Positions 5,800 to 45,387 of a stretch of DNA of 64,000 bases are shown here, one piece after another. The notes under the pieces are model-generated. The model saw nothing but the letters and a program-made list of their open reading frames with translations, was not told the DNA's origin and did not search any database. The stretch comes from Janibacter sp. DB-40 (GTDB taxonomy: Bacteria > Actinomycetota > Actinomycetes > Actinomycetales > Dermatophilaceae), in contig NZ_CP120360.1 of NCBI RefSeq assembly GCF_029510815.1, positions 1,860,001 to 1,924,000 on the forward strand, given 5' to 3'. The position numbers and the translations under genes were made by a program. Each line of letters opens with the position of its first letter. Position 1 is the stretch's first letter.

Positions 5800-7280
5800 T
5801 CAGGGCTTCTTGCGCAGCAGGGCGAGGAACATCCCGTCCGTGCCGTGGATGTGGGGCCACATCTGGGCGTGAGGGCCGTCCCCGAGGTCGGTGAGGTCGC
5901 CGGTCGCGACCTGGTCGAGCAGCTCGCGGGCATCGATCTGCTCCACGTCGTCGCGCTTCTTGAGCACGTCGCGCACGACGAAGGTGGTCTCGGACAGGTG
6001 CGGGCTGCACGTCGCGTAGGCGATGACACCGCCAGGTCGGGTGGCCTCGATCGCGGAGACGAGCAGCTCGCGCTGCAGCGGACCGAGGCCGACGAGATCG
6101 CTCGGCTTGCGCCGCCAGCGCGCCTCCGGACGACGACGCAGGGCCCCCAGGCCGGTGCACGGTGCGTCGACGAGCACGCGGTCGTACCGCTCCGGCTCGT
6201 CGGCACCGAGCTCACGACCGTCGCCGGTGCGGACCTCGAGTCGGCGACCGGCGGCCTCGGCCGCCTCCAGTGCCGGGCGCAGGGTCTGGCGCACCAGCTC
6301 GGTGCGGTGGTCACTGATCTCGTTGGCCACGAGGTCGGCCCCCTGCTCGAGCGCCCTGGCCGCGAGCAGCCCGGCCTTGCCGCCGGGACCGGCGCACAGG
6401 TCCAGCCACTGCTCGGGCGCGTCCCCGTCGCGATCGGCGAGCGGGACGGCCGCGAGCGCGAGGGCGAGCAGCTGGCTCCCTTCGTCCTGCACCGCGGCAC
6501 GTCCGTCGCGGACCGCCTCGATGGAGCCGGGGTCTCCCCCGTCGAGCTCGGCGGCGAAGGGGGACCACCGCCCGGGGTGGGCCCCCGCGGCGAGGAGGTC
6601 GTCGACCTCGGCGAGACCCGGGCGGGCGACGAGCGAGACGGGCGCGGGGACGTTGTGCGCGGCCAGCAGCTCCGCGACGGCCTCGTCAGCCGTCTGCGGG
6701 GTGGCCGCACCGTGGCCGATGAGCGCCTGGCGCAGGGCCTTGACGATCCACACCGGGTGCGAGTGCTCGATCGCCAGGCGCTCGGCGAGCGGCTCGGCGG
6801 GCACGACCCGCTGACGCCACTCCTCCGCAGTGCTCTCGGAGACGCGGCGCATGACCGCGTTGACCAGACCCGCTGCCCCCGGGCCGGCGACGGAGCGGGC
6901 GAGCCCGACGGCCTGGTCCGCGGCGGCGTGGTCCGGCACCCGCATGGCAAGCACCTGGTGGACCCCCATCCGGAGCACGTCGAGGACCCCTCCGTCGAGC
7001 CGGCTCGTCGGGCGTCCGGTGGCCTCGACGATGATCGCGTCGTAGAAGCCCTGCATCCGCAGGGTCCCGTACGTCAGCTCGGTGGCGAAGGCGGCGTCCC
7101 GGTCGTCCAGCCGCGCGCGCCGCAGCGCCCTCGGCAGCTCGAGGTTGGCGTAGGCACCGTCGCCGACGGCGCGGAGGACGGCGTGGGCGGTGCTGCGGGC
7201 CGGGCTCCCCGACGCGAGCGCTGCGCGGGCGCGGTCCGCGACTTCTGGCGGGGGCCCTTCCGCTGTCCGTCGGTGCTCAT
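5800..7280 (-). CDS. rsmB: 16S rRNA (cytosine-967-C5)-methyltransferase RsmB, apparent N-terminal frameshift
   Basis: SAM-dependent methyltransferase of the Sun/Fmu family acting on 16S rRNA. The catalytic part is intact: SAM site [14 protein letters not shown], catalytic [18 protein letters not shown], and [11 protein letters not shown] with the second cysteine. The natural start is the ATG at 7280, overlapping the fmt stop (ATGA), and reads [15 protein letters not shown]. That frame, however, hits a stop near 7074, while the conserved NusB-like domain ([40 protein letters not shown]) lies in another frame without a good start. Adding one base to the C4 run at 7207-7210 joins them into a 493-residue protein, normal for the family. 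Without it, translation could begin only at 7056. Confidence 0.88.
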
Positions 7281-8209
7281 GCCTGCTCCTCGCCCAGTCG
7301 TTCGTCGGTGGCCACCCGCACGCCCCGTGCCCAGTCCGCAGCGGGCATCGGCTTCTTGCCCAGGGGGACGACCTCGCCCAGCCGGACGGCGCGGTCGGCC
7401 GTCCCGACGAGCACCTCGCGCTTGCGCGCCTCGATCCGGCCCGCCGGCAGACTCTCGTCGGTGATCGTCACCGGGCCGAGCTTGAGCCGCTCGCCACGGA
7501 AGGTCGTCCACGCGCCGGGTGCGGGCGTGCACCCACGGATGTGCCGGTCCACAGCCATCGCGGGGTGGGCCAGGTCGACCCGCGCGTCCTCGACGGTCAG
7601 CTTCGCGGCGTGGCTGACACCCTCCGTCGGCTGGGCCCGCGGCTCGAGGTCGCCCGTGGCCACGCCGTCCATCGTCGCCAGCAGGAGTGGGGCGCCGGCG
7701 TCGGCGAGCCGGTCGAGGAGCGACCCGGCGGTGTCGTCGGGACGGATCCGCTCGGTCATCGTCCCGAGGACCGGACCGGTGTCCAGACCCGCCTCGATCA
7801 GGAAGGTGCTCGCGCCCGTGATCTCGTCGCCGGCGATGATCGCCCGTTGGACCGGGGCGGCGCCGCGCCAGGCCGGGAGCAGCGAGAAGTGGAGGTTGAC
7901 CCACCCGTGCGTCGGGATGTCCAGGACCTCCCGGGGAAGGAGTGCGCCGTAGGCGACGACCGGGCAGCAGTCCGGCGCCAGGGCGGTCAGCTCGGCCACG
8001 AAGTCCGGGTCCCGGGGGCTGGAGGGCGTCAGGACGGGCAGGCCCAGCTCCTGCGCCACGGTCTTCACGGGCGAGGGCTCGAGGCGACGCCCGCGACCCA
8101 CCCGGGCGTCGGGTCGGGTGACCACGGCGACCACCTCGTGGTCGGAGTCGGACAGGGCCCGGAGGGAGGGGACGGCGACCTGCGGGGTCCCGGCAAAGAT
8201 CAGTCGCAC
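7277..8209 (-). CDS. fmt: methionyl-tRNA formyltransferase
   Basis: Transfers a formyl group from 10-formyltetrahydrofolate to initiator Met-tRNA. About 310 residues: the N-terminal Rossmann domain opens with [15 protein letters not shown], the folate/catalytic region has [17 protein letters not shown] with its Asn-His pair, and the C-terminal OB domain follows. The GTG at 8209 was chosen because family proteins begin right at this RLIFAGTP; an earlier GTG at 8233 would add eight residues. The stop overlaps the rsmB ATG. Confidence 0.95.
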
Positions 8210-8277
8210 GGGGGCGATTCTAGGGCGCCGCACGGCCGGGCACGGCCGCGGCCCACGCCGTCACGCGGCCCGGGGCG

Positions 8278-10255
8278 TCACAACGCCCCGAGGTGACCGA
8301 CCTTCACCGACGTGAGCGTCTCCGCCTTGTGGGCGCTCTCCCCCGCCCGGAGGTCCTTCAGCGCGGCGGCGACGAGGGGGCCGTCGCCGAAGGGTGCCTT
8401 GATGACCAGCCGTCGTCGGTCCTCGGCGCCGGCGACCGGCAGGGGCCCGAGGACCTGCGCCTCGTGCGCCACCGCCCGCACCGCGTGCTCCACGGGCTCG
8501 ACCCGCTTGCGGTGCGCGACGACCTCGGCGGTCCAGGTGGTCGGTGGCAGCGAGAGCTCCGTGCGCTCGGCCAGCTCGCGGGCCGCGAACCACTGCGGGT
8601 CCCACCGCACGAGCGCCTCGACCGGGGGATGGTCACGTGGCTCGGGGCGCCGCACAGCACGACCACTCCCCCGTCGGCCCACGACCGGCACAACCCGGCA
8701 GCGGCGAACCACCGGCGCACCGCCTCCTCGGCCGCCCGGAGGTCCGGCCGGTCCAGGCTCGCCCAGGCATCGAGCAGGAGGACCGCCGCGTAGCCCCTTC
8801 GGCCACCGGCTCGGCCCCGGGTGTGGCGACGACGATCGCCGCCTCGGCCCCGACGCCGGCGTGCACCTCGCCCCCACCGGAGGTGATGACCCTGGTCCCC
8901 GGGAAGGACCGGCCGATCTCCTCGGCGGTGCGACGGGCCCCGATGACGCCGGCACGCAACCGGTCGCCGTCGCAGTGGGGGCAGACGAAGCCGCGGGGCG
9001 CGCGACCGCACCAGCCGCACTCCGGTGGTCGGTCCGGCGACGGCAGCGCCAGCGGACCACGACACTCGGGGCACCGGGCCGGCGCACGGCACGAGGCGCA
9101 CGCCATCGCCGGGAGGTAGCCCCGGCGAGGCACCTGGAGGAGCACCGGCCCCTGCGAGAGGGCCGCCGAGGCGGCGCGGTGGGCCGATGACGGGATGTGC
9201 GCCCGCGCTCCCGGGCCGTCCCGCTCCTCGTCCAGGCCCTCCCCGGCGACGAGCACCCGCGGGGCGTCACGACGCGAGGTGGAGCCCCCGACGAGGTGGA
9301 CCCGGCCGGTGTCGACGAGGGCGGCCACGTCGGTCGACATCGTCAGGCCGGCGACGAGTACGGCCGCGTCCTCGACGTCCGCACGCGTGAGGAGCACCTG
9401 GCGCACGTGGGCGTACGGGGCGCGCGGCTCGACGTGGAGGTCGTCCCCGTCGTCCCACCACGCGACGAGCCCGAGATCGCGCACCGGTGCGTAGGCGGCG
9501 GCCCGGGTGCCGACGACGACGCGCACGTGCCCGCGCAGGACCTTCAGCCACGCGGTGTAGCGCGCCTGCGGGCCCTGGTCTGCGGTCAGCCGCACGTGCC
9601 GGTCCGGTCCGAGTGCCTCGGTCAGCGCCTCGTCCACACGGACCACGTCCCGCTGGTCGGGGACGACGATGACCGCGCCCCTGCCCGAGGCCAGTGCCGC
9701 ACGCGCGGCCTGGGCAAGGGCCACCGGCCAGTCCGACGGGGCCGGCCGGGAGGGCGCGGCCACCCACGCGGCCCCGGGCGACTCCCCCGCGGCCACCCGT
9801 GACCACCAGGCGGCGCCGGCCCGGTAGTCCGCCCACACCTGCGGCGTCGTGGTCTCCGGCACCGGCCGTGGCTCCTCCCCGGCCGCAGGATCCTCCCGGG
9901 GCAGTGCCTTCTCGGCGCGGGCGTGGCGGGGCGGGATCGCCAGGCGCAGGACGTCCCCGGTCGTGCCCGCCTGGTGGGCCGCCAGGCGTCGGGCCAGCTC
10001 CAGGACCGGGGGCGTGAGCACCGGCTCGTCGGAGACGACCGTGCGGATGGGGGCCAGACGGCCGGTGTGCTCGGCGGCGTCGGACCGCTCGACGACGTAA
10101 CCGGGACGGTCGCGACCGGCGAAGCGCACCTTGACCCGCACGCCCGGTTGGGCGGCCTCGGCGAGCTCCTCGGGCACCAGGTACTCGAAGGGCCGGTCGA
10201 GATGGACCAGCCCCGTGTCGACGAGGACCCGGGCGACGGGGGTGGACAGGAGCAC
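8278..10255 (-). pseudogene. priA: primosomal protein N' PriA, actinobacterial type, two apparent frameshifts
   Basis: Replication-restart protein. The first frame (10255 to about 8797) encodes the N-terminal DNA-binding domain (ARVLVDTGLVHLDRPFEYLV), the degenerate helicase core and the cysteine zinc cluster (CASC, CPEC, CGWCGR, CPHC). As in other actinobacteria, the Walker A position reads SGRGAVIVVPDQRD, so helicase activity is unlikely. The frame breaks twice: at the C4 run 8794-8797 the protein continues in a second frame (YAAVLLLDAWASLDRPDL), and at the G5 run 8624-8628 in a third (VEALVRWDPQWFAARELA to the stop at 8278). One extra base at each run gives a 659-residue protein of normal size. 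Sequence error is more likely than decay. Confidence 0.85.
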
Positions 10256-10312
10256 GGGGACAACGTAACCGGGTGGGGTGTCAGCCGATGGCTCGCTCCG
10301 CCCGGCGGTGGG

Positions 10313-11542
10313 TCAGCCGCGGACGGCTGCCTGCAGGGCCTCGACCTTCGTCGTCTGCTCCCACGGGAAGGCGTTGTCGTAGCCGGCGGCCGAGGTGCGC
10401 CCGAAGTGGCCGTAGGCGGCCGTCGGCGCGTAGATCGGACGCAGCAGGTCCAGCTCCTCGACGATCGCCAGCGGTCGCAGGTCGAAGACGGACGTGACGG
10501 CCCGCTGGATCGAGTCGACCGGGACGGTCTCGGTGCCGAAGGTCTCGATGTAGAGGCCCACCGGCTGGGCGGCGCCGATGGCATAGGCGACCTGGACCTC
10601 GCACCGGTCGGCGAGCCCGGCGGCGACGATGTTCTTGGCGACCCACCGGGTGGCGTACGCGGCGGAGCGGTCGACCTTCGAGGGGTCCTTGCCGGAGAAG
10701 GCGCCACCACCGTGGCGGGCCATGCCGCCGTAGGTGTCGACGATGATCTTGCGTCCCGTCAGTCCCGCGTCCCCCATGGGGCCACCGATGACGAACTTGC
10801 CGGTGGGGTTGATCAGGGTGCGGTAGTCGGAGGTGTCCAACCGCACGCCCGAGTCCTTCAGCTCGGCCATCACGGGGTCGAAGACCGTCGCCATGATGTC
10901 CGCCGGAAGCTGGCGCTCGTGGTCGACCTCCGCGGAGTGCTGGGTCGAGAGCACGACGGTGTCCAGCCGCACGGGGCTGTCCCCGTCGTAGTCGATGGTG
11001 ACCTGGGTCTTGCCGTCGGGACGCAGGTAGTCCAGCACCCCGTCCTTGCGGACCTCGGTGAGTCGCTGCGAGAGGCGGTGCGCGAGGTAGATCGGCAGCG
11101 GCATGAGGTCGGGGGTGTCCCGGCAGGCGTACCCGAACATCAGGCCCTGGTCGCCGGCGCCCTGCTTGTCCTTGGGGTCGATGCCCCCGGTGCGGCTCTC
11201 GTACGCGGTGTCCACGCCCTGGGCGATGTCGGGGCTCTGCGCCCCGATGGAGACCGAGACCCCGCACGTGCGGCCGTCGAAGCCCTTCTCCGAGGAGTCG
11301 TAGCCGACGTGGTCGGCGATGACCGAGCGCACCAGGTGCGGGATCTCGACGTAGGCCTCGGTGGTGACCTCACCGGCGATGTGGACCAGCCCGGTCGTCA
11401 CCATGGTCTCGACGGCGACGCGGCTGTGCGGGTCGGCGTCGAGCATGGCGTCGAGGATCGAGTCCGAGATCTGGTCGCAGATCTTGTCGGGGTGACCTTC
11501 GGTCACCGACTCGGAGGTGAAGAGACGTCCGGACACGCGCAA
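10313..11542 (-). CDS. metK: S-adenosylmethionine synthetase
   Basis: Makes SAM from methionine and ATP. The 409-residue protein has the standard motifs: [14 protein letters not shown] near the start, the substrate loop [20 protein letters not shown], and the glycine-rich [19 protein letters not shown]. Starts at the GTG that puts [12 protein letters not shown] at the N-terminus. It lies between coaBC and priA in the minus-strand block. The divergent metNIQ importer at 24.4 kb supplies its substrate, though the two are 13 kb apart. Confidence 0.97.
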
Positions 11543-11591
11543 CTCCCGGGTTCGACTGACCGGGCGGGGACAACCGACCGGTAGGGCGTCG

Positions 11592-12854
11592 TCAGTCTAG
11601 GACCCGCTGCCGTCGGGGACGGAGGGAGCCCGCGACGACGTCCCAGATGCCGTCGGAGACGAGGCGCTTGCTCGCGGGGCCGATGTCGACCGTCTCGTCG
11701 CTGCCCCGGGTGAGGACGTGGACCGTGGTGTCGTCGGCGCCGAAGGTCACGCCCTCGCCCACCTCGTTGACGACGAGCAGGTCGCAGCCCTTGCGGGCGA
11801 GCTTGTCCCTGCCGTGCGCGAGCACCGAGCCGGTCGCGTCGCCCGTCTCCGCGGCGAAGCCCACGAGCAGGGGTGTGGTCGCGTCGCCGCGCCCCGAGAC
11901 CAGGCCCGCGAGGATGTCCGGGTTGCGCACGAGCTCGATGGTGGGCGCGGCATCCGGGTCGGCGGGGTCGTGGGACTTCTTGATCTTGGCCCGGGCGTAG
12001 TCGGCCGGGCGGAAGTCGGCGACGGCGGCGACCATGACGACGACGTCGTGGTCGGCGGCCCGCGCAGCCATCTCCGCCTGCAGCTCCAACGCGGTCTGCA
12101 CGGGGACGACGTCGATGCCCGGCGCCACCGGCAGCTCGAGGTTGGCCGCCACGAGCGTCACCCGGGCGCCGCGTGCGGCCGCGGCCTCGGCCACGGCAAG
12201 GCCCTGCTTGCCGGAGGAGCGGTTGCCCAGGTACCGCACGGGATCGAGCGGCTCGCGGGTCCCGCCGGTGCTCACGAGCACCGAGCGGCCGACGAGGTCG
12301 CCCTCCTGCGCGTGTGCGCGGCTGGGCGCACCCGCAACCGCGGCCATCGCCGCGGCACGGATGTCCTCGGGCTCGGGGAGGCGTCCGGGGCCGGTGTCGG
12401 CACCGGTCAACCGTCCCGAGTCCGGATCGATCACGGTGACCCCGCGCTGGCGCAGGGTCGCGACGTTGGCGCGCGTGGCGGCGTGCTCCCACATCTCGGT
12501 GTGCATGGCGGGAGCCAGGACGACGGGGCAGCGAGCGGTGAGCAGGACGTTGGTCAGGAGGTCACCGGCCAGGCCGTGGGTCGCCTTGGCCAGCAGGTCC
12601 GCGGTCGTCGGCGCGACGACGACGAGATCGGCCTCCTGCCCGATGCGCACGTGGGGCACGTCGGTGATGTTGCTCCAGACGTCGGTCTGGACCGACCGGC
12701 CCGAGAGCGCCTCCCAGGTCGGCGCGCCGACGAAGCGCAGCGCCGCCTCGGTGGGCACGACGGTCACCTCGTGGCCGTCCTCGCTGAAGAGGCGCAGCAG
12801 GAGTGCCGCCTTGTAGGCCGCGATGCCGCCACCCACGCCGAGGACGATGCGCAC
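11592..12854 (-). CDS. coaBC: bifunctional phosphopantothenoylcysteine decarboxylase/synthetase
   Basis: Two-domain coenzyme A biosynthesis enzyme. The N-terminal FMN-dependent CoaC domain (residues 1-about 180) begins [19 protein letters not shown] and has the decarboxylase [10 protein letters not shown] motif. The C-terminal CoaB domain has [17 protein letters not shown] followed by RSSGKQG, a family signature, and the later DLLVVNEVG. At 420 residues it is full length. It follows rpoZ by about 10 bp, the usual gmk-rpoZ-coaBC order. Confidence 0.96.
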
Positions 12855-12864
12855 GAAGGTGGCC

Positions 12865-13179
12865 TCAGGCCTCGTCGGTGGCCGGGATGTCCACGATCGA
12901 CTCGACCGACGCCTCGGCGGGCTTGCTCGCCTCCTTGGTCAGCAGCCCCTCGTCGATCTCGCGCAGCGCGATCGACAGCGGCTTCTCGTGGACCTGAGCG
13001 TCCACCAGCGGCCCAATGTACTCGAGCAGGCCCTCCTGCAGCTGCGAGTAGTAGGCGTTGATCTGGCGGGCCCGCTTGGCCCCGTAGATCACGAGGGCGT
13101 ACTTGCTGTCCGCCCGCTCGAGGAGGTCGTCGATCGGCGGGTTGGTGATGCCGATGGGGTTTGCCTTGGTACCGGACAC
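12865..13179 (-). CDS. rpoZ: DNA-directed RNA polymerase omega subunit
   Basis: Small RNA polymerase subunit that helps fold beta prime and stabilise the enzyme. About 104 residues from the GTG at 13179, which has an AAGGA about 10 bases upstream. Signature features are [20 protein letters not shown] and [16 protein letters not shown], then an acidic/alanine-rich tail. The frame stays open upstream into gmk, but homology begins only at the chosen start. Confidence 0.94.
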
Positions 13180-13205
13180 GTCGAGGTGGTCCTTCGTCGT
13201 CGGGG

Positions 13206-13760
13206 TCAGGGGGATCTCATCAATGATACGAGTTCCTCGGCGGCACGACGAATGTCGTCGTTGACGACCACGTGGTCGAACTCGTGCTGGGCCGCCATCT
13301 CGACCTTCGCGGTGTCGAGTCGGACGGCCCTCTCCTCGGCCGTCTCGGTGCCGCGGCCCTCGAGCCGGCCGACGAGCTCCTCCCACGACGGGGGCGCGAG
13401 GAAGACGAACCGGGCCTGCGGCATCGAGGCACGCACCTGCCGGGCTCCCTGGAGGTCGATCTCGAGCAGCGGGAGCTTGCCCTCGGCCAGCGCCTGCTCC
13501 ACGGGACCCCGCGGCGTGCCGTAGGAGGCCCGCCCGTGGACGACGGCCCACTCGAGCATGTCGCCCTCGCCGACCTTGGTGGCGAAGTCCTCACCGGAGA
13601 TGAAGTGGTAGTGCACCCCGTCGACCTCGCCGGGGCGCGGCGGTCGCGTGGTCGCCGAGACCGAGAGCCACACCTCGGGGTGGTGCTCCCGGATCCAGGC
13701 GGCTACGGTGCCCTTGCCCACGGCGGTCGGGCCCGCGAGGACGGTCAGACGCGCGGTCAC
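13206..13760 (-). CDS. gmk: guanylate kinase
   Basis: Phosphorylates GMP to GDP. The 184-residue protein has the P-loop [16 protein letters not shown], the GMP-binding [17 protein letters not shown] and FISGEDF, and the lid sequence around R. Start at GTG 13760, overlapping the mihF stop as GTGA; an in-frame GTG five codons upstream is possible but lies inside mihF. The mihF-gmk-rpoZ order is diagnostic of actinobacteria. Confidence 0.96.
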
Positions 13761-14113
13761 GAGCGCTCGAACCACTCGACGAGGGCCCGCGCCTGGTGCG
13801 GACCGAGGCCGCGGACCCGCCGCGACCGGGCGATGCGGAGCTGATCCATGATCCGGCCCGCCCTGGCGTCCCCGATGCCCGGCATCGACTCGAGGAGCTC
13901 GAGGACCCTGAGCTTGGCGATCGCCGGGTCGTGCGCACGACGGGCGAGGACGTCACCGATGGTCACGCTCCCCTGCTTGAGCCGACGCTTGACGACGGCT
14001 CGCTCCTGACGTGCGCTCGTCGCCCTGGCCAGGGCGTGGGCGCGCTGCTGCGGGCTCAACGTGGGGACGGGCACGGGAACTCCGGGGTCGACCGACAGGG
14101 GTGCGGTCACCAT
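13757..14113 (-). CDS. mihF: integration host factor, actinobacterial type (mIHF)
   Basis: Nucleoid-associated DNA-binding protein found only in actinobacteria and unrelated to HU-like IHF. The 118-residue protein has a long helix rich in Arg/Lys ([19 protein letters not shown]) and the helix-two-turn-helix core [19 protein letters not shown], ending with [10 protein letters not shown]. In related bacteria it bends DNA and is essential. It sits 2 bp after pyrF and overlaps gmk by 4 bp. A start about six codons later is possible. Confidence 0.93.
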
Positions 14114-14115
14114 AC

Positions 14116-14982
14116 TCAGACCCCGGTGATGCGGGCGACCTCGCCGGCAACGGCGCGGGCACGCCCGCGCAGGGAGGCCACGTCGGGTCCCGCCCGCAGG
14201 ACGTCCCTGCTGCTGCTCGCGAGCACCTGGGGCAGCGCCCCGGCGAAGACCGAGCGCACGTCCTCGGCGGTCGCCCCCTGGGCGCCGAGCCCGGGGGCGA
14301 GGACCGGTCCGGCCATGGCCGGCAGGTCGACCTGCAGGTCGGCCACGGCGGAGCCGACGGTGGCCCCGACGACGAGACCGATGCTCCCGAGCCGGCCCGC
14401 GGCGCGGTCGTCGGCGTTGTCGCGTGCCGCGCCCTCGGCGACGGCTCCCGCGACCGATCGTCCGTCGGGGAGGCGGGCGTGCTGGACGTCGGCACCCTCG
14501 GGGTTGGACGTCAGGGCGAGGACGAAGGCCCCGCGGCCCGTGGCGTGCGCGCGGTCGATCGCGGGGCGCAGGGAGCCGTAGCCGAGGTACGGGCTCAGGG
14601 TGATCGCGTCCGCAGCGGCCGGCGCGTCCGTGCCGAGGAAGGCCTCGCCGTAGGCGTCGACGGTGGTGCCGATGTCGCCGCGCTTGACGTCGAGGACGGT
14701 GAGGGTACCGGCCGAGCGCAGCTCGGCGAGCGCGCGCTCGAGGACCGCGACCCCCTTCGCCCCGAAGACCTCGAAGAAGGCCGACTGGGGCTTGACGGCG
14801 GCGACCGCGCCGCCGAAGGCCTCCACGCAGGTCATCGTGAACCGCTCCAGGCCGGCGAGGTCGTAGGTCAGCCCCCAGGACTCGAGGAGTCCGCGGTGCG
14901 GGTCGATCCCCGCACAGAGCGGACCGTGCTCGGCCATCGCGGCCTGCAGGCGGACGCCGAAGGGGGTGGTGTCGGTGGTCAT
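14116..14982 (-). CDS. pyrF: orotidine-5'-phosphate decarboxylase, subfamily 2
   Basis: Final step of UMP synthesis. The 288-residue length and MTTDTTPFGVRLQAAM start fit the longer subfamily 2 found in mycobacteria and relatives. The catalytic Asp-Lys-Asp array is in TVLDVKRGDIGTT (around residue 95), and LAPGLGAQGATAEDV binds phosphate. ATG at 14982 chosen; an upstream GTG would add three residues. Confidence 0.96.
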   Translation of the reverse strand: MTTDTTPFGVRLQAAMAEHGPLCAGIDPHRGLLESWGLTYDLAGLERFTMTCVEAFGGAVAAVKPQSAFFEVFGAKGVAVLERALAELRSAGTLTVLDVKRGDIGTTVDAYGEAFLGTDAPAAADAITLSPYLGYGSLRPAIDRAHATGRGAFVLALTSNPEGADVQHARLPDGRSVAGAVAEGAARDNADDRAAGRLGSIGLVVGATVGSAVADLQVDLPAMAGPVLAPGLGAQGATAEDVRSVFAGALPQVLASSSRDVLRAGPDVASLRGRARAVAGEVARITGV

Positions 14983-14992
14983 GCCGTGCACC

Positions 14993-15973: not shown

Positions 15974-16865
15974 CAGCGCACCGCCTTCGGGGCGCCGACG
16001 GCGTCCTCGGGGACGCGGCAGTACCCGTCCTCGAAGGCCTCCCACCGCACCCGGTCACCGCGCAGGACGGGGCCGTCGAGGCAGCTGCGCACCATCGTGG
16101 TGGTGCCGTCCTCGCCGCGGACCGGCATCACGCACGTCATGCAGATCCCGACGCCGCAGGCCATGGCCTCCTCGACGGCGACCTGCGCGACGATGCCGTG
16201 CTCGTCGGCTATGGCGCTGAGGGAGCGCAGCATCCCCATCGGCCCGCAGCCGTAGACGACCCCCGCGCCCGTGCGGGTGACCAGGTCCGGCACGACGTCC
16301 GAGACCCATCCCCGGACCCCGGCGGAGCCGTCGTCGGTGGTCACGGTGACCCCGTCAGCGACCCGCCGCGCCCCCACGACACCGAAGAGGCGGTCCGCGG
16401 ACGCGGCGCCGAGGACCATCTCGACCGGGCATCCGCGCTCGCGCAGCTGCTCCGCGAGCCAGAAGAGCGGCGCCGAGCCGTACCCGCCGCCGACGAGGAC
16501 GCAGGGGACGGGCTGCGACGGCAGCGGGAACCCCCGTCCGAGCGGGCCGATGACCCCGACGCTCTCCCCCGGCTCCAGCGCGGTGAGGGCGCGGGTGCCG
16601 GCACCGTGCGCCGCGACGACGATCTCGGTCGTGCCGCCGTAGGTCCCGGCCGGGGAGACCCGGTGGATGGAGAAGCTGCGACGCAGCAGCATCGAGCTCG
16701 TCCCGTCCCCCACGGACAGGGCGACGAACTGCCCCGGGCGGGCCAGCTCGGCCAGGCCGGGGGTGACGAGCGTGAGGTGCCGGTACGCGCCGGCGGCGAC
16801 GTTGCCGAGGACCTCGGCCTCGACCTGGACCACCCCGGCGCCCTCGCGGGCGGCGATGGTGCGCG

Positions 16866-16869
<4 letters not shown>
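15973..16869 (-). CDS. pyrK: dihydroorotate dehydrogenase electron transfer subunit
   Basis: Iron-sulfur flavoprotein that passes electrons from PyrD to NAD. The 298-residue protein has an N-terminal FAD-binding barrel ([12 protein letters not shown]), an NAD-binding domain ([18 protein letters not shown]) and near the C-terminus a [2Fe-2S] cluster site CGVGICMTC plus a further Cys in RSCLDGP. It overlaps carB by 4 bp and pyrD by one base, so subunits are probably made in balance. Confidence 0.94.
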
Positions 16870-20215
<3,346 letters not shown>

Positions 20216-33433: not shown

Positions 33434-33440
33434 TCAGGGG

Positions 33441-34510
33441 TCAGGCGAGTGCCGCGTAGGCCTCGCGCAGCAGGTCCTCCGGTGGGCCCTCGAGGCGCGT
33501 CGGCGCGGCGAGCCCGTCGAGCACGACGAGCCGCAGGGTGGCGCCACGGGTCTTCTTGTCCCTGCGGAGCGCGGCGAGCAGGTCGTCGAAGTCGGCCCGC
33601 GCGTACGTCGTGGGCAGCCCGAGGAGGCCGAGCACGTAGCGGTGCCGGTGCAGCAGCGCCGCGTCGATGTGACCGGTCCGGTGCGCCAGCTCGGCCGCGA
33701 AGACCATCCCGATGGCCACGGCCTCCCCGTGCCGCATGCGGTACTGCTCGTGGTGCTCGACGGCGTGACCGAGCGTGTGCCCGTAGTTGAGGATCTCGCG
33801 CAGGCTCGACTCCCGCAGGTCCGCGGCGACGACCGCGGCCTTGACGGCGATCTTGCGCTCGATGACCTCGCGCAGCGCGGGCGAGCCGGGGTCCTGCACA
33901 CCGGCCGCATCGGCCTCGACCAGCTCGAGGATCCGCGGATCGGCGATGAAGCCGCCCTTGACGACCTCGGCCAGGCCCGCGGCCAGGTCGGCGGGAGGGA
34001 GCGTGTGCAGGTGGTCGAGGTCGCACAGGACCGCAGCGGGGGTGTGGAAGGCGCCGACGAGGTTCTTCCCCTCGGCGGTGTTGATGCCGGTCTTGCCGCC
34101 GACGGCGGCGTCGACCATGCCGAGGACGGTGGTGGGGACGTGGACGACGGCGACGCCGCGCAGCCAGGCGGCAGCGGCCCAGCCGCCGAGGTCGGTGACG
34201 CTGCCACCGCCGACGGCCACGACGGCGTCGCTGCGGGTGAAGCCGGCCTGCCCCATGCGTGCCCACAGACCGCTCGCGACCTCCACGGTCTTCGCCGCCT
34301 CGGCGTCGGGGACGGCCGCGACGTGCACGTCGAGCCCGGCCCGGCGGAGGGATGCGACGACCGGGGCGGCAAGGGTGGCCAACGGTGCGCCGTGGACGAC
34401 GAGCACGCGGGCGACGCCGGCGGGCAGCACGTCGGCCACGTGGGAGGAGACCCCGTGCCCGACGAGGACGTCGTAGTCCCCCCGACGGGGATGGTCGTCA
34501 CCTCGCTCAT
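33441..34510 (-). CDS. aroB: 3-dehydroquinate synthase, apparent frameshift near the start
   Basis: NAD- and metal-dependent second step of the shikimate pathway. The body (from 34439 down) is intact: VVAVGGGSVTDLGGWAAA, GIN TAEGKNLVGAFH-type substrate loop, and metal ligands in LNYGHTLGHAVEHH. The expected start is ATG 34510, overlapping the aroK stop (ATGA), reading [11 protein letters not shown], but this frame leaves the conserved YDVLVGHGVSSHVADVL. One extra base in the C6 run at 34478-34483 restores a continuous 356-residue protein, normal for AroB. Confidence 0.9.
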
Positions 34511-36257: not shown

Positions 36258-36292
36258 GGCACAGATCCTCGCATCCCGGCGGAGGGGCCGAG

Positions 36293-37114
36293 TCAGGCGT
36301 CCGGGGAGTGACCCAGCGCGGCGCGACCGGCAGCCTGCATCGCCGCCACGGGGGCGGCCACGCCGGTGAAGAGCTCGAACTGCCGCGCGGCCTGGTGCAC
36401 GAGCATCTCCAGACCGGAGACGACCTGCGCGCCGCAGCCGCTGGCCGCGCGGGCCAGGGGCGTCGGCCAGTCCGCGTAGACGACGTCGAGGAGGGTCGCG
36501 CCCGTGAGGTCCTCGTCGACGTGACCCGCCGCTGCTCCGTTCGCCGTCCCGCCCGGGAGCGTCGACACCACGGCCCGGGCACCGGTGCGCGCCCAGTCAG
36601 CCAGGGGGACGACCTCGAGCGTCACGTCCGCGACGTCGCGCAGTGCCTCGGCCCGCTCGGGCCTGCGGGCCGCGACGGTGATGTGGGTGGCTCCCAGCCC
36701 CACCAGTCCCAGCAGGGCCGAGCGGGCCGTCGCGCCGGAGCCGACGACGGTGGCGCGGTCGAGGCCGTCGACACCGGCCTCGCGCAGGGCGGCCGTGATC
36801 CCGTGGACGTCGGTGTTGTCCGCGGCCCAGCCGGTGCCCGTGCGCACGAGCGTGTTGACCGCTCGCGCGGCCCGGGCGGTGTCGGTGACGGTCTCGGCGA
36901 GATCGCCGGCCACGACCTTCAGCGGCATCGTCAGGCTGAGGCCGCGCCACTCCTGCGTGAGCCCCGCGACGAAGGGGGGCAGCCCCCCTTCGTCCACGTC
37001 GTGCGCCGTGTAGCTCCACTCGGTCAGCCCCGCCGCCACGTACCCGGCCCGGTGCAGGGTCGGGGACAGCGAGTGACCGATCGGGGATCCCAGGACGCCG
37101 GCGCGGACGGTCAT
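36293..37114 (-). CDS. aroE: shikimate dehydrogenase
   Basis: NADP-dependent reduction of dehydroshikimate. The 273-residue protein reads [18 protein letters not shown] at the start, the catalytic Lys in [19 protein letters not shown] at the substrate site and [15 protein letters not shown] for NADP. ATG 37114 has GAGGTG just upstream overlapping the mltG stop region. It contains a perfect 12-bp inverted repeat at 36968-36994. Confidence 0.93.
36968..36994. repeat. perfect 12-bp inverted repeat inside aroE
   Basis: GACGAAGGGGGG (36968-36979) and its exact complement CCCCCCTTCGTC (36983-36994) are separated by three bases. It encodes D-E-G-G-L-P-P-F-V in aroE about 40 codons after the start. 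In RNA this would be a very stable hairpin. It is two opposed copies of the CGAAGGGGG word found across the window. Confidence 0.9.
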
Positions 37115-37118
37115 CACC

Positions 37119-38312
37119 TCACTCGCAGCTACCGGTGTTGCGGCAGAACTCCTGCACGTTCTGCTGGTGCTCGGCCTCGGTCTCGGCGAACTTCGTCTCC
37201 CCCGTGGACGGGTCCACGGTGACGAAGAAGAGCCAGTCGCCCTCGGCCGGGTTGCCCGCGGCGTCGATGGCGGCGGCACCGGGGTTGTTGATCGGCCCGG
37301 GAGGCAGGCCCTGGTTCTTGTACGTGTTGTACGGGCTGTCGGTGTTGCGCTCCTTGTCGGAGGTCGTCACCGTCCCCCGCTTCTGCAGCATGTAGTGGAT
37401 CGTGGAGTCCATCTGGAGCATCCCGCGGGTCGGGCCCGTGGGGTCGGCGAGCCGGTTCTCGACCACGCGGGCGACCTTGTGGCGGTCCGCCTCACCGGCC
37501 TCGCCCTCGACGATGGAGGCGACGGTGAGGGTGCGCTCCCACTCGTCCTTCGGGACCCCGGCCTCCTCCAGCTGAGCGACCGTCTGGCCGATCATCTTGT
37601 TCAGCTGCTGCACGGCGCTCGCGTCGTCGGCGAACTCGTAGGTGGAGGGGAAGAGCCAGCCCTCGATCGCACCCTCCGCCTGCGGGGGCAGCTGGAGCTC
37701 GTCCGACTCCTCGGCCTGCTCGTACTCCTTCACGGGCACACCGGTGCCCTCGGACAGGCGCTCGTAGATCTCCGAGCGCCACAACCCCTCGGGGATGGTC
37801 AGGCCCTTGGCGATGCGGCTCTCCGGCGAGAGCAGCCGGTCGAAGGCGTCGGAGGCCGACATCTTCTGCAGCATCGAGTAGGTTCCGGGCTGGATCTTGG
37901 CGGCCCGCTCCGGCTGTGCCGTGGCCACCGCGGTGAAGCTGCTCGTGGTCTTCACGACGTCGGCCTCCTGGAGGGTCTCGCCGATCATCGCGCCGGACGC
38001 GCCGGAGTCGATGACCACCTCGACCTTCCCGCTGCCGGGACCGGGGTAGTCGTTCGGCTCTCCCCCACCGGGCAGGAGCGAACGCAGGGATCCGAAGGCG
38101 AACCACACCGCCGCGACGACGAGCGCGCCCGCGAGGACCAGCACGACGACCGACACGGCACGGCGCCGGCCGGGGCCCCCGCCGTCATGGCGGGCTCGGC
38201 GCCCGCGCCGGTGGTCCCTGCGGCGTTCCGCGCGGGTCCGGTGCACGACGTCGTGCTCGTCGTGGCCTGCGCCGCGACCGTCGTCGAAGATCCTGTCGTC
38301 GAGCCTGGTCAT
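37119..38312 (-). CDS. mltG: endolytic transglycosylase MltG
   Basis: Membrane-anchored lytic transglycosylase of the YceG family that cuts nascent peptidoglycan and can end glycan strand growth. The 397-residue protein has a charged N-terminal cytoplasmic segment, one membrane helix (residues about 53-75), and the YceG domain with catalytic Glu in ASIVEGEAGEADRHKVA and the QMDSTIHYML and NPGAAAIDAA segments. ATG overlaps the ruvX stop (ATGA). Confidence 0.95.
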   Translation of the reverse strand: MTRLDDRIFDDGRGAGHDEHDVVHRTRAERRRDHRRGRRARHDGGGPGRRRAVSVVVLVLAGALVVAAVWFAFGSLRSLLPGGGEPNDYPGPGSGKVEVVIDSGASGAMIGETLQEADVVKTTSSFTAVATAQPERAAKIQPGTYSMLQKMSASDAFDRLLSPESRIAKGLTIPEGLWRSEIYERLSEGTGVPVKEYEQAEESDELQLPPQAEGAIEGWLFPSTYEFADDASAVQQLNKMIGQTVAQLEEAGVPKDEWERTLTVASIVEGEAGEADRHKVARVVENRLADPTGPTRGMLQMDSTIHYMLQKRGTVTTSDKERNTDSPYNTYKNQGLPPGPINNPGAAAIDAAGNPAEGDWLFFVTVDPSTGETKFAETEAEHQQNVQEFCRNTGSCE

Positions 38313-38821
38313 GCGTCATCGCCCTTCCGCGGTGTGCGTCGGCGCGGCCGACCGACCCGTTCCCCGGGGGGTCCACCGGTTGCGCGCTCCGTGTCCAGTG
38401 CGGTCTGCAGGATCAACACCGCAGCCGCCTGGTCAACCACCTCACGATGGTTGCGCCCGGCCACTCCACTGTCATGCAGACCCCGATGAGCATCCACCGT
38501 CGAGAGGCGTTCGTCCACCAGGCGGACCGGCGTGTTCGCGATCGGTGCCGCCCCGAGGGCCCGGCGCAGTGCCTGCGCCCAGTCCCGCACGCGCCGTGCG
38601 GCGGGCCCCTCCCCGCCATCGAGCGAGCGCGGCAGGCCGACGACCACCTCGATGACCGACAGCTCGCCGGTCAGGGCGACGACCCGGTCGATGTCGCTGT
38701 CGTGCTCGAGGTCGCGGGCGATGGTCTCTACCGGGGTCGCCAGGAGCCCGGCGGGGTCGCTGGTCGCGACCCCGACCCGGGCGTCCCCGACGTCGATCCC
38801 CAGGCGTGCTCCGGTACGCAT
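38309..38821 (-). CDS. ruvX: Holliday junction resolvase-like protein RuvX/YqgF
   Basis: RNase H-fold nuclease of the YqgF family, linked to 16S rRNA 5' processing and Holliday junction work. The 170-residue protein has the catalytic Asp in RLGIDVGDARVGVATSD, the VVGLPRSLDGGEG strand and RLVDERLSTVDAH. A basic C-terminal tail (RPRRRTPRK) is unusual but common in actinobacteria. Lies between alaS and mltG in the usual order. Confidence 0.93.
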   Translation of the reverse strand: MRTGARLGIDVGDARVGVATSDPAGLLATPVETIARDLEHDSDIDRVVALTGELSVIEVVVGLPRSLDGGEGPAARRVRDWAQALRRALGAAPIANTPVRLVDERLSTVDAHRGLHDSGVAGRNHREVVDQAAAVLILQTALDTERATGGPPGERVGRPRRRTPRKGDDA

Positions 38822-38828
38822 GGTCCGG

Positions 38829-41510
38829 TCAGGCCCCGATCTCGCGCTCGAGGGCGGCGAGTGCCTCGGACACCTTGCCGACGTCCTGGCCGCCACCCTG
38901 GGCGAGGTCGTCCTTGCCGCCGCCCCCGCCGCCGAGCGTCTGCGCGGCGACGCGGACGAGCGCGCCGGCCCTGACCCCCTTCGCCCGGGCGGACTCGTTG
39001 GTGGCGACGACGACGACCGGCTTGCCCGAGCCGTCGCCGGTGAGGGCCACGACCGATGGCCGCTCCTCCCCCAGCCGACCACGGGTGTCGGTGACCATGC
39101 GGCGCAGGTCGTCGCCGGACGCTCCCGCGATGTGCTGTCCGACGAAGGTCACGCCCGCGACGTCCTTCGCGCCGTCGGTGAGCGATCCCGCGGAGGCGGC
39201 GACCTGCTCACGACGGACCTTCTCCAGCTCCTTCTCCGTCTCGCGCAGGCGGGCGATCATGTCTGAGACCCGCTCCGGGAGCTCACCTGCGGGCACCTTG
39301 ACGATCTCGGCCAGCTCGGCGACGAGCGCCCGCTCGGTGGCCAGGTGCTGCAGGGCGTTCATCCCGACGAAGGCCTCGAGGCGCCGGACTCCGGAGCCGA
39401 CGGAGGACTCACCCGTGAGGGTGAGCGCACCGATCTGGCTGGAGTGGCGCACGTGCGTGCCACCGCACAGCTCGCGCGACCACGGGCCGCCGATCTCGAC
39501 GACTCGCACCAGCTCGTCGTAGGTCTCGCCGAAGAGCGCGAGGGCTCCCTGCTCCCGGGCCTCGGGCAGGGTCATCCAGTCGGCGGAGACCGGCAGGTCG
39601 TCCCGGACGGCGAGGTTGGCCACGTGCTCGATCTCGGCGCGGGCGTCCGCGGAGAGGGACTGGTTCCACGCGAAGTCCAGGCGCAGGTAGCCGGGCTTGT
39701 TGTAGGAGCCGGACTGCAGCGCCGACGGGCCGAGCACCTGGCGGAGGGCGGCGTGGACGACGTGGGTCCCGGAGTGCGCCTGGCAGGCGTCGACCCGCCA
39801 GCCGGGGTCCACCTGCGCCGACGTCTCCTGCCCGACCCGCACGGGGCCGTCGGCGACCTCGACGGTGTGCGCGACGAGGCCCTTGACCGGGCGCTGCACG
39901 TCCCGGACGAGCAGGCGGGTGCCGTCGGCGACGATGATGCCCGAGTCGGCCACCTGGCCACCGGACTCGGCGTAGAAGCTCGTCCGGTCGAGGACCACCT
40001 GACCGGTCTGGCCCGGCTCGAGCTCCTCGACCGTCGCGCCGTCGCGCACGAGGCCGACCACCGACCCGTGGGTGGTCAGCTCCTCGTAGGCACGCCAGTC
40101 CGTGGCACCGAGCGAGCGCAGCTGCTTCCAGACCTCGGTGTTGGCCTGGCCGCCCTTCTTCGCCCGGGCGTCGGCCTTGGCGCGCTGACGCTGCTCGTCC
40201 ATGAGTCGCACGAAGCCCTCGCGGTCGACCGCCAGGCCCTGCTCGGCCGCCATCTCGAGGGTGAGGTCGATCGGGAAGCCGTACGTGTCGTGGAGGGCGA
40301 AGGCCTTCTCCCCCGACAGGACGTCGCGACCGGACTGCTTGGTCTCCGTGACCGCGGTGTCGAGGATCGTCGTGCCCTGGGCCAGGGTGCGGCGGAAGGC
40401 CTGCTCCTCGGCGTAGGCGATCTGCGCGATCCGGTCGAAGCCGGTGCGCAGCTCGGGGTAGGAGGCGCTCATCCGCTCCATCGAGATCGGCAGCAGGTGC
40501 GGCAGGGCCGGCTCCTCGTACCCGAGCAGGCGCATCGCCCGCACGGCGCGACGCAGCATGCGGCGCAGCACGTAGCCGCGTCCCTCGTTGCCGGGGGTGA
40601 CGCCGTCGCCGATGAGCATGAGCGAGGAGCGGACGTGGTCGGCGACGACCCGCAGGTGGACGTCGTCGGGGTGGGAGTCCCCGGCGGTCTGCCCGGAGGA
40701 GGCGCCGTACTCGCGTCCCGTCATCTCCGCGGCCTTCTCCAGGACCGGGTAGACCTCGTCGATCTCGTACATGTTGTCGACGCCCTGGAGGATGCTCGCG
40801 ATGCGCTCGAGGCCCATGCCGGTGTCCACGCTCTGCGCGGGCAGCGGCCCGGCGACGTCGAAGTCGTCCTTGGCCCGGACGGCGGAGAGCTCGTACTGCA
40901 TGAAGACGAGGTTCCAGATCTCCATGAACCGGTCCTCGTCGACCTCGGGCCCGCCGTCGACGCCGTACTCCTCGCCGCGGTCGTAGAAGATCTCGCTGCA
41001 GGGGCCGCCCGGGCCGGGCACACCCATGCTCCAGTAGTTGTCGAGCTCACCGCGGCGCACGATGCGCTCGGCCGGGATGGCGGTCTCCTCCAGCCAGAGC
41101 CGCTCGGCCTCGTCGTCGTCGATGTAGACCGTGGCCCAGAGGCGGTCGGGTTCGAGCCCGTAGCCGCCGTCGTCCTGGCTGGTCGTGAGCAGCTCCCACG
41201 CGAAGGCGATCGCCTCACGCTTGAAGTAGTCACCGAAGGAGAAGTTGCCGTTCATCTGGAAGAACGTGCCGTGCCGGCTCGTCTTGCCGACCTCGTCGAT
41301 GTCACCGGTGCGCACGCACTTCTGCACGCTCGTCGCGCGGGCCCACGGGGCGCTCTCCTGCCCGGAGAAGTACGGCTTGAAGGGAACCATGCCGGCGTTG
41401 ACGAAGAGGAGGGTCGGGTCCTCGTGGATCAGCGGGGCGGAGGGGACGACCGTGTGTCCCCTCGCCTCGAAGAAGGTCAGCCAGCGGCGCCGGATCTCGG
41501 CAGTTTCCAT
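38829..41510 (-). CDS. alaS: alanine-tRNA ligase
   Basis: Charges tRNA-Ala and edits mischarged Ser/Gly. The 893-residue protein is full length: catalytic domain start (RRWLTFFEARGHTVVPSAPL), editing domain with zinc-site HSGTHVVHAAL and CGGTHVRHSSQIG, and the C-terminal C-Ala domain ending in a glycine-rich GGGGGGKDDLAQGGGQD. It heads alaS-ruvX-mltG-aroE-aroC-aroK-aroB, all closely packed. Confidence 0.98.
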   Translation of the reverse strand: METAEIRRRWLTFFEARGHTVVPSAPLIHEDPTLLFVNAGMVPFKPYFSGQESAPWARATSVQKCVRTGDIDEVGKTSRHGTFFQMNGNFSFGDYFKREAIAFAWELLTTSQDDGGYGLEPDRLWATVYIDDDEAERLWLEETAIPAERIVRRGELDNYWSMGVPGPGGPCSEIFYDRGEEYGVDGGPEVDEDRFMEIWNLVFMQYELSAVRAKDDFDVAGPLPAQSVDTGMGLERIASILQGVDNMYEIDEVYPVLEKAAEMTGREYGASSGQTAGDSHPDDVHLRVVADHVRSSLMLIGDGVTPGNEGRGYVLRRMLRRAVRAMRLLGYEEPALPHLLPISMERMSASYPELRTGFDRIAQIAYAEEQAFRRTLAQGTTILDTAVTETKQSGRDVLSGEKAFALHDTYGFPIDLTLEMAAEQGLAVDREGFVRLMDEQRQRAKADARAKKGGQANTEVWKQLRSLGATDWRAYEELTTHGSVVGLVRDGATVEELEPGQTGQVVLDRTSFYAESGGQVADSGIIVADGTRLLVRDVQRPVKGLVAHTVEVADGPVRVGQETSAQVDPGWRVDACQAHSGTHVVHAALRQVLGPSALQSGSYNKPGYLRLDFAWNQSLSADARAEIEHVANLAVRDDLPVSADWMTLPEAREQGALALFGETYDELVRVVEIGGPWSRELCGGTHVRHSSQIGALTLTGESSVGSGVRRLEAFVGMNALQHLATERALVAELAEIVKVPAGELPERVSDMIARLRETEKELEKVRREQVAASAGSLTDGAKDVAGVTFVGQHIAGASGDDLRRMVTDTRGRLGEERPSVVALTGDGSGKPVVVVATNESARAKGVRAGALVRVAAQTLGGGGGGKDDLAQGGGQDVGKVSEALAALEREIGA

Positions 41511-41740
41511 GGGTGTCTCGTGTCCAATCGGTGCTGTTGCAAGAGCAGGTGCGGATGTCTCGGGCAGGAGCGAAGGGGGCGACCGGCGCCTCAGGCGCGG
41601 GCCGACCCCGGGATAGCTCGCCGCGCGGAGGTCCGTCGTGGTCGTCCGAGAGGCACGGTCATGCCCTCACCCTACCCACCGGGTCGGTGGATCGCTGTCG
41701 GCGCGGGAGCCCGCGAGGGCGCGACGAGGCGCCGACGAGC
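41511..41740. other. rarA-alaS intergenic region, no gene seen
   Basis: A 230-bp gap between two minus-strand genes. It should hold the alaS promoter. It contains a short hairpin (GGCGCC-TCA-GGCGC near 41585-41600) and one CGAAGGGGG word, but no convincing open frame, tRNA, T-box leader or T-rich terminator. Confidence 0.6.
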
Positions 41741-43153
41741 TCACCGGCGGCGCAGGCGTTCCCTGAGCCAGGCCCACCGGTCCTGCAGCCGCGCCTCGAA
41801 GCCACGGTCGGTCGGCCGGTAGTACGACCTGGCGGCGAGCTCGGCGTCCAGGTCGTCGGGGAGGTACTGCTGTGCGGCCACCCCGTCGGGCTGGTCGTGC
41901 GCGTAGACGTACCCCTCGACCTTCGCTCCCCCGCTGGCACCGGCGGCGCGGTCCGAGGCCTGGGTGTAGCCGCTGCCGCGCAGGTGCGGCGGCACTGCCT
42001 GCACCTTGCCCGCCCGCACGTCGGCGACGGCCTCGTTGATGCCGGTGTACGCCGCGTTGGACTTCGGCGCGAGCGCGTTGTGGACGACGGCCTGCGCGAG
42101 GATGATGCGCGCCTCGGGCATCCCGATCTGCGCGACCGCGTGCATCGCGGCCACCGCCGTCTGCAGTGCGGTCGGGTCGCCCAGGCCCACGTCCTCGGAG
42201 GCGGCGATGACGATGCGCCGGGCGATGAATCGCGGGTCCTCCCCCGCCTCGAGCTGGCGCGCCAGGTAGTGCAGTGCCGCGTCGACGTCGGAGCCGCGCA
42301 TGGACTTGATGAAGGCGGAGGCGACGTCGTAGTGCTGGTCGCCGGTGCGGTCGTAGCGCACGGCCGCGCGGGCGACCGCCTGCTCGACGTGGGCGAGGGT
42401 GAGCGGGATCGTCCTCGGGGTGTCGGGGCCGAAGGGGACGTCCCCGTCGGCGACACCCGCGGCCGCCTCGAGCGAGGTCAGCGCACGTCGGGCGTCTCCA
42501 CCGGCGATCGCCACGAGGTGGTCACGGGCCTCGTCGGCGAGGTCGTAGCCACCGGCCAGTCCCCGCTCGTCGGTGAGGGCGGCGTCGATGACCTCACCGA
42601 CCTCCTCGCGGGTCAGCGACTCCAGCGTGACCAGGATCGAGCGGGACAGCAGCGGCGCGATCACCGAGAACGACGGGTTCTCCGTCGTGGCCGCGACGAG
42701 CACGACCTCACGGTTCTCCACCCCGGGGAGCAACGCGTCCTGCTGGGCCTTGGAGAAGCGGTGGATCTCGTCGAGGAAGAGGACCGTCTGCCGGCCGTAC
42801 ATCGAGCGGTTGGTCGCCGCGCGCTCCATGACGGCACGCACGTCCTTGACCCCCGCGGTCACGGCGGACAGCTGCACGAAGTCCCGGTCGGCGGCCGTCG
42901 CCACGAGGTGGGCCAGGGTCGTCTTGCCGGTCCCGGGCGGGCCCCACAGGATCGCCGACATCGGTCCGGTCACGGCACTGACGCTGCCCTCCACGAGCCG
43001 GCGCAGGGGTGAGCCCTGCCGCAGCACCTCCTGCTGACCACGCACCTCGTCGAGATCACGTGGCCGCATGCGCACCGCGAGCGGCGCCTGCAGGTCCGCC
43101 GCCCCACCGTCGGGTTCCCCACCGGCGGAGGCGAAGAGATCGAAGGAGGTCAC
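41741..43153 (-). CDS. rarA: replication-associated recombination protein RarA (MgsA)
   Basis: AAA+ ATPase acting at stalled replication forks. About 470 residues: Walker [19 protein letters not shown], Walker [17 protein letters not shown], sensor [17 protein letters not shown], and the C-terminal tetramerisation region with [17 protein letters not shown] and YKP-like [13 protein letters not shown] 43153 (TSFDLFA follows) is chosen; a GTG three codons upstream also fits. Only about 18 bp separate it from the divergent gene at 43172. Confidence 0.93.
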
Positions 43154-43171
43154 GAGTGGCACGCTATCCCG

Positions 43172-45387
43172 GTGGGCGCTCACCGGGACACCTCCACCCA
43201 CCTGCACCGGCTCGGGGTGCAGGTGGCGAAGCACCCTGTCGCCGTCGTCGTCACCTGGATCGTCCTCGCAGCCTTCTCCCTCGCCCTGGCGCTGGGCACG
43301 GTCACCGGCCACGCCCTCTTCGACGACCTCTCCAGCGGCGAGATCACCGCCCCGGGCGAGGCACAGGAGGCACGTGACCTCCTCGTCGCGGCCGGAGGCG
43401 GCGACTTCGCCTCGGACACCCTGATCGTCGAGGGGTCGCCGGCCACCTCCCCCTTCGTGCGGCGGCAGGTCGCGGCGGCCGTCGAGCGCCTCCACGAGAC
43501 CGAGGGCGTCGCCCGGGTCATCAACCCACTCGTCCTCGAGGAGGGTGTCGAGGACCCCCGCGCCGGTCCCCTCGTGCAGGAGGAGGGGGACGGACGCTAC
43601 GGATTCGTCACGGTCGTCGAGTACGAGGAGGACCTCGAGGGCGAGGCCCTGGCGGAGGCGCAACGGGCCGTCGACGTCCAGCTCGACGAGATCGTCAGCG
43701 GCTCGCGGGCCACCGACAGCACGCGCGGCAGCGTGCAGATGCTCGTCGACGAGATCGTGGAGCAGGTGAGCACCGACCTCAAGGTCGGCGAGGGCATCGC
43801 CCTGCCCATCACGTTCGTCGTCATGGTGCTGATCTTCGGCGGATTCCTGGCCGCCGGCATCCCGCTGTTCGGCGCCCTCGCCTCGATCGCCGGCGCGCTC
43901 GCGACGCTGTGGGGCTTCGCCCACGTCATCGAGCTCGACGCGACGGTCGTCAACATCGTCACCGTGCTCGGTCTGGGCCTGTGCATCGACTACGGGCTGC
44001 TCATCGTCTCCCGGTTCCGCGAGGAGATCTCGCTCGACCTCGACGGGGCCGAGCTGCCCGCACGTGGTCGTGGCGTGATCGAGCAGGCCACCGGCCGCAC
44101 TCTCGACCGGGCGGGTCGCACGGTCGTCTTCTCGGCGGTGACGGTCGCGATCGCGATGTCGGGGCTGTTCTTCTTCCCGGCCACCTTCATGCGCGCCTCC
44201 GGCGCGGCCGGTGTCTCCGTCGTCGTCCTCTGCCTCGCGGTCGCGATGACACTCGTCCCGGCGTTGTGCGCCCTGGGTGCGCGACGCCTGGTCCGCGGTC
44301 GCACCGAGCGGGGGCGTGACGACGGGGTCTTCGCCCGCCTCGCCGGTCGGGTGCAGCGCGCGCCGTGGCTGGTCATCACCCTCGTGCTGGCGGCCCTGGT
44401 CGCCATGGCCCTCCCGACGACCCGGATGGAGGTGACCTCCTCGGGGACCGAGCTCCTGCCCGTCGGCAGCGACCAGCGCACCTTCTTCGCCGAGCTCGCC
44501 GAGGACTACCCCGAGCTGGCCACCCCGGACGTACAGGTCGTCACCACCGCCGACGAGCCTCAGGTGCGCGCCTGGGCACGGGACGACGCGGCGACGCTGC
44601 CGCACGTGGACTCCGTGGAGGTGAGCGAGGTCGGGGCCACCCCCGATGGCGAGAGGGTGCTCACCGTCGACCTGCGCACCGACGACGAGCCGCTCGGCGA
44701 CGACAGCCGCGCGCTGGCGGCCCACCTCAGGTCGGACGGGCCCCCTTCGCGGCCCACATCGGGGGCCAGGCCTCGGGGCTCGACGACTTCGTGGACGCCC
44801 TCGTCGACCGGGCGCCCTGGGCGGCCGCCACGGTCGTGCTGGCGACTTTCGTCCTGCTCTTCCTCATGACCGGCTCCGTCGTCGTCCCGATCAAGGCCCT
44901 GCTCATGAACGTCGTCTCACTCGGCGCCTCGCTCGGCGTGCTCGTGTGGGTCTTCCAGGACGGGCACCTGTCCGGTCTGCTCGACTTCGACCCGGTCGGG
45001 GCGCTCGAGGTCTCCATCCCGGTCCTCGTCCTCGCCTTCGCCTTCGGCCTGTCGATGGACTACGAGGTCTTCCTGCTCTCCCGGATCGTCGAGCTGCACG
45101 AGCAGGGCCGGCCCACCGACGAGGCCGTGCGGCTGGGTCTGCAGCGCTCCGGCCGGATCATCACCAGCGCGGCCCTGCTGATGGTCATCGTCTTCTCCGG
45201 CTTCATCCTCGCCCAGATCCTCGCCGTCAAGCAGACGGGCGTCGCCCTCGTCGTCGCGATCGTCATCGACGCCACGCTCGTGCGGATGCTCCTCGTCCCG
45301 GCGACGATGTCGGTCCTCGGCGAGTGGAACTGGTGGGCGCCCCGTTGGATGAAGCGCGCGCACTCCCGCTTCGGGATCACCGAGTGA
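43172..45387 (+). pseudogene. MMPL family transporter, one apparent frameshift
   Basis: RND-superfamily membrane exporter of the MMPL type. The first frame (to about 44745) has a helix after [18 protein letters not shown], an extracytoplasmic domain, then helices with [20 protein letters not shown]. After the C5 run at 44741-44745 the protein continues in another frame: [17 protein letters not shown], more helices and FAFGLSMDYEVFLLSRIVE. The two halves repeat the same architecture, as expected. One added base yields 738 residues, normal for the family. Start could be the later GTG at 43217. Substrate unknown; overlaps the GNAT gene by 4 bp. Confidence 0.85.

Follow-up and report, generated by a model that had tools for sequence, protein, structure and literature searches.

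Five single-base losses in short G/C runs break four genes (rsmB, priA, aroB, and an MMPL family transporter gene) in the assembly of Janibacter sp. DB-40, and sequence comparisons lead us to conclude, with a probability of about 0.9, that these frame changes stem from consensus errors in the assembly. All five lie in the window, by which we mean the whole stretch of 64,000 nucleotides analyzed here (contig NZ_CP120360.1, positions 1,860,001 to 1,924,000). Error is the best explanation because relatives are in frame at every aligned site and because losses at G/C runs recur in all four blocks of the genome that were sampled. The original prediction had favored the same explanation, which is further supported by the bias toward loss at coding runs, by the pattern of losses with divergence, and by constraint on the broken genes.

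Genomes and comparisons

The assembly is a single contig of 3351260 bases and is rated 99.98% complete. Judged by RsmB, the closest named relatives of the window are Janibacter species. We searched 39 genomes, including fifteen further genomes of the same genus; each species is represented by one genome, and protein clusters at 90% identity merge isolates. The window was aligned to six Janibacter genomes (the sister genome G013, and G005, G012, G014, G008, and G001). For rsmB and priA, the locus test used the eight of nine loci that are named Janibacter, with the most distant one (L011, 65% identical) omitted; these eight loci may partly overlap the six aligned genomes. For aroB, fifteen same-genus loci were used. 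The genome sample comprised four blocks (704 of 3351 kb), of which 641.7 kb aligned to the sister at 93.8-95.6% identity. The sister alignment is interrupted at positions 4457-5110 of the window, over most of the gene at 4390-5103, which suggests local replacement there.

Frame differences were assessed by gene-level comparison, as a codon-frame test around indels was too weak near gene ends. Reference-free frameshift counts were dropped because the frameshift-tolerant gene finder also makes calls where two genes meet (22 such calls in 204 kb of the assembly and 21 in 220 kb of the sister).

Five sites in four genes

The four genes, as they stand in the window, are:

5800..7056, minus strand: rsmB (16S rRNA m5C967 methyltransferase), surviving open reading frame (ORF) of 418 aa, identified from its translation; the intact sister protein matches RsmB families
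8278..10255, minus strand: priA (primosomal protein N'), with two breaks; its longest ORF in a single frame is 8633-10255, 540 aa
33441..34439, minus strand: aroB (3-dehydroquinate synthase), in which an internal GTG opens a surviving ORF of 332 aa
43172..45387, plus strand: MMPL family transporter gene, split between two frames, with ORFs at 43172-44869 and 44365-45387

The runs at which the frame changes are:

7207..7210, minus strand: G/C run of 4 in rsmB, codon 24 of 493; one base shorter than in 6 of 6 genomes and 8 of 8 loci
8794..8797, minus strand: G/C run of 4 in priA, codon 486 of 659; one base shorter than in 6 of 6 genomes and 8 of 8 loci; preceded by GAA on the G strand
8624..8628, minus strand: G/C run of 5 in priA, codon 544 of 659; one base shorter than in 6 of 6 genomes and 8 of 8 loci
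34478..34483, minus strand: G/C run of 6 in aroB, codon 11 of 356; one base shorter than in 6 of 6 genomes and, modulo three, than in the 14 aligned loci of 15
44741..44745, plus strand: G/C run of 5 in the MMPL gene, codon 577 of the sister's 790; lacking one base that the 5 aligned genomes of 6 have; GAA stands before it on the G strand

The runs sit where the original prediction had placed them, and relatives that align across them are one base longer (modulo three at aroB). All five breaks fall in G/C runs of at least 4, which make up about 4.8% of window bases. Comparison with close relatives, which had been proposed as a check, gave the same answer at every aligned site, with the longer run carried by the aligned genomes and Janibacter loci. 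The one genome without an alignment at the MMPL site is G008. At aroB, 11 of the fifteen loci are at +1, three are at +4, +7, and +13, and one does not align across the run; G008 has 6 additional in-frame bases near it. In more distant genomes, the alignment gap falls a few bases off the run.

The lengths predicted for the rejoined proteins agree with those in the intact sister for RsmB (493), PriA (659), and AroB (356); for the MMPL protein 738 residues had been claimed, and the sister's is called at 790 aa, with an earlier start. The frameshift-tolerant gene finder, run on the window, recovered priA with 659 codons and the MMPL gene with 738, and fused rsmB and aroB with their neighbors. These joins give partial support, because of the two mergers and because of the calls that the program makes at junctions.

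Frame changes in runs are also what is seen at slippery sites, where programmed ribosomal frameshifting or transcriptional slippage could yield full-length proteins from the sequence as given. Predicted recoding is recognized by a position and direction conserved across a cluster (PMC3711429). We looked for a conserved frame change in the relatives aligned at the five sites and found none, every one of them being in frame, and four unrelated genes would each require such a mechanism. Programmed frameshifting fails because the frame changes are common to no aligned relative, and we give it a probability close to negligible.

A run in the ribosomal RNA may call for a different reading. The last 2.1 kb of the window (61889-64000, minus strand) is part of a 23S rRNA gene, which a 5S gene adjoins, and the G run near 63081-63085 has 5 bases in each of the two copies here, as it does in the two of G008. 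It has 6 in the eight other same-genus genomes with a match, and 6 of 16 genomes have no match. As the shorter run is common to both copies here and both in G008, it may be natural.

State of the broken genes

The breaks in rsmB and aroB come early (codons 24 and 11) and thus leave the downstream ORFs of 418 and 332 aa. These long ORFs start at GTG or ATG, so shortened products from internal starts are possible, and judging from the reading frames the strain might make shortened RsmB and AroB in this way. By contrast, priA and the MMPL gene are broken inside the protein, and neither can be whole from the sequence as given. In a search with the sister PriA protein, the fragment from this contig (P0045) has 540 aa, whereas the other 119 among the best 120 of 7959 matches have at least 655 aa.

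Substitutions relative to the sister point to continued constraint. For PriA, pN is 0.019 and pS 0.128 before the first break, and 0.011 and 0.104 after it. Downstream of the breaks, pN is below pS in RsmB, PriA, AroB, and the MMPL protein, most weakly in the last (0.022 vs. 0.069). Relaxed selection, sought by pN/pS against the sister in the four broken genes, was thus not found, although a very recent break would look alike. Several other listed broken genes, among them an acetolactate-synthase-like gene and signal peptidase I, show less constraint. The acetolactate-synthase-like gene, like priA, carries two single-base losses (G000:C1:2741252 and 2741450, L182).

Losses across the genome sample

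Of 669 sister genes in the 641.7 kb aligned, 22 carry a total of 25 single-base losses in this assembly, in all four blocks (5 losses in the window and 20 outside it). This is a coding loss rate of about 39 per Mb, or approximately one site per 26 kb of sample, which extrapolates to approximately 130 genome-wide. By inspection, 23 of the 25 lie next to a G/C run that has 3 or more bases in the assembly, the exceptions being a second MMPL gene and one loss from G3 to G2. The 22 genes are what was kept from 33 with frame differences. Of the 11 discarded, five have indels of 4-46 bases, two have one-base gains close to the end of the gene, and in two the differences form compensated or terminal clusters. 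The last two do have a single-base loss, in one case at the edge of the alignment and in the other in a short, divergent ORF. Four of the 22 genes counted (TyrS, signal peptidase I, FtsK, and RimM) were considered as examples of broken essential genes and rejected, as their breaks lie outside the conserved domain.

Starting instead from the assembly's own genes, 23 of 669 are listed with frame differences. On reading, these are 12 losses already counted, three discarded losses, three further single-base losses, one 17-base loss, one mixed cluster, and three single-base differences that are gains only (one at an alignment edge). In FtsK, one of the 12 already counted, a loss is paired with a gain 233 bases away. 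Gains therefore exist but are few, and the claim that all errors are losses, never gains, holds for the five window sites and not for the rest of the sample.

The window holds 5 losses where 2.2 would be expected from the rest of the sample (p 0.07), so clustering there is not supported, and by this sample the window is not special among the blocks.

Direction and divergence of run-length changes

We compared G/C runs of at least 4 with matching flanks between the assembly and the sister. At coding runs, 16 are lost and 1 gained (binomial p 0.0003), which argues against plain mutation in both lineages, as that would give about equal counts. Noncoding runs show no loss bias (18 lost and 17 gained). 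We read this balance, which a pure error model alone does not predict, as natural variation in both lineages swamping the few errors expected there. Hairpin-like CGAAGGGG...CCCCTTCG pairs, which are perhaps terminators, occur 13 times in the 704 kb; in the pair at G000:C1:1703529-1703560 (L155), each arm lacks one base relative to the sister.

Runs were then classed by divergence (substitutions within 250 bp on either side). Lost coding runs number 3 of 208 with 0-5 substitutions, 6 of 2034 with 6-20, 3 of 1672 with 21-35, and 4 of 317 with 36 or more. The rate does not climb steadily and is highest at both extremes, with small counts throughout, and two of the three losses in the lowest class belong to one gene. 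Seven tracts of 700 bp or more (6.7 kb together) are free of substitutions; one of them has two losses and six have none. The one with losses, 1221 columns from position 1763204 of G000:C1 (L158), holds a CbiX-domain gene with 0 differences over 213 codons; it is a recently shared tract and serves as an error gauge.

As a control, five other relatives were compared with the sister at 80-87% identity, and 0 of 831 coding runs were shorter or longer. Under the same filter, this assembly has 15 of 4228 coding runs lost. The control alone is not significant (Fisher p 0.15), because only approximately 3 losses would be expected there.

These patterns bear on whether the losses could instead be genuine slippage mutations that arose recently in the strain that was sequenced. 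As NucS-type mismatch repair does not mend such loops, frameshifts could build up in a culture that is relaxed or bottlenecked. In Mycobacterium smegmatis, NucS leaves 1-2 base indels unrepaired (according to passages of PMC11551767), and the nucS gene of this genome has an open frame, so real slippage is possible in principle; it would also accommodate the five window sites all being losses and the variation of noncoding runs in both directions. The resemblance to the leftover indels described in those passages extends to homopolymer run-length changes in an actinobacterium. Here, however, many conserved genes are affected at once, the loss bias is confined to coding runs (where two mutating lineages should give equal gains and losses, against the 16:1 seen), and the rate shows no steady rise with divergence. 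Real slippage would need approximately 130 coding breaks genome-wide, two of them in priA, with no loss of constraint on the four genes of the window. We regard it as decidedly unlikely.

Sequence context of the losses

At runs of at least 4, coding and noncoding together, GRA on the G strand precedes 20 of 34 losses, compared with 464 of the 4757 runs that did not change (odds ratio 13, p 3e-12); among gains the figure is 2 of 18. The p value is too good, because the motif was picked from the same losses on which it is tested. For coding runs of 5, 7 of 208 are lost after GRA vs. 3 of 757 elsewhere. The context rule fits base-calling error.

By inspection, GRA precedes only two of the five window sites (the run of 4 in priA and the MMPL run). 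This would be accommodated by a mixed case, overlapping the main reading, in which most of the changes are errors and at least one of the four genes is truly broken in the strain. MMPL genes are dispensable in many bacteria, which counts on the same side. Against this, the four genes do not stand out among the other broken genes, and the five window losses are within chance of the outside rate; we consider the mixed case unlikely. It would be very improbable that the approximately 130 coding frameshifts are all fresh and real, many of them after GRA, as this would imply loss-biased slippage in an actinobacterium with NucS, with proteins such as PriA either made by slippage or dispensable.

Comparison with known errors

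Consensus error, the reading that we prefer, has documented counterparts. In a published draft genome of Pseudomonas syringae 508, false deletions made up most of the indel errors and were commonest at or after homopolymers of 4-5 bases, with A/T runs the commoner sites (as reported in passages of PMC12007338). Like the long-read homopolymer deletion errors described there, the losses reported here are of single bases, at runs of approximately 4-5, scattered over the genome, and they fragment genes that are intact in relatives. They differ in that nearly all are at G/C runs, A/T runs being few in this genome, and in that they favor GRA. At Dcm sites, nanopore base-callers have been documented to make motif-specific consensus errors (in the passages concerned of PMC6591954); the losses here likewise depend on local context and not on run length alone, although the context is GRA before a G run.

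Several traits of homopolymer error are found in this assembly: indels at homopolymer runs, losses in excess of gains at coding runs (although not at noncoding ones), a spread over all four blocks, and a rate without a steady rise over the four divergence classes (with small counts, and highest at both extremes). We infer that the cause lies in sequencing. A long-read platform is a fair guess, and uncorrected reads of this kind, suggested in the original prediction, would fit a one-contig assembly. Under such a scheme, the base-caller or consensus step would undercount short G/C runs by one base, more commonly after GRA on the G strand.

Implications

The finding is an ordinary data-quality artefact, with the GRA context as one modestly useful detail; if it holds elsewhere, it could help to flag errors of this kind in further high-GC assemblies. 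Intact rsmB, priA, aroB, and MMPL genes are most likely present in the living strain. The warning concerns a genome that, despite its rating of 99.98% complete, probably has around 130 false single-base coding losses, and anyone counting pseudogenes or claiming gene loss would be misled by them.
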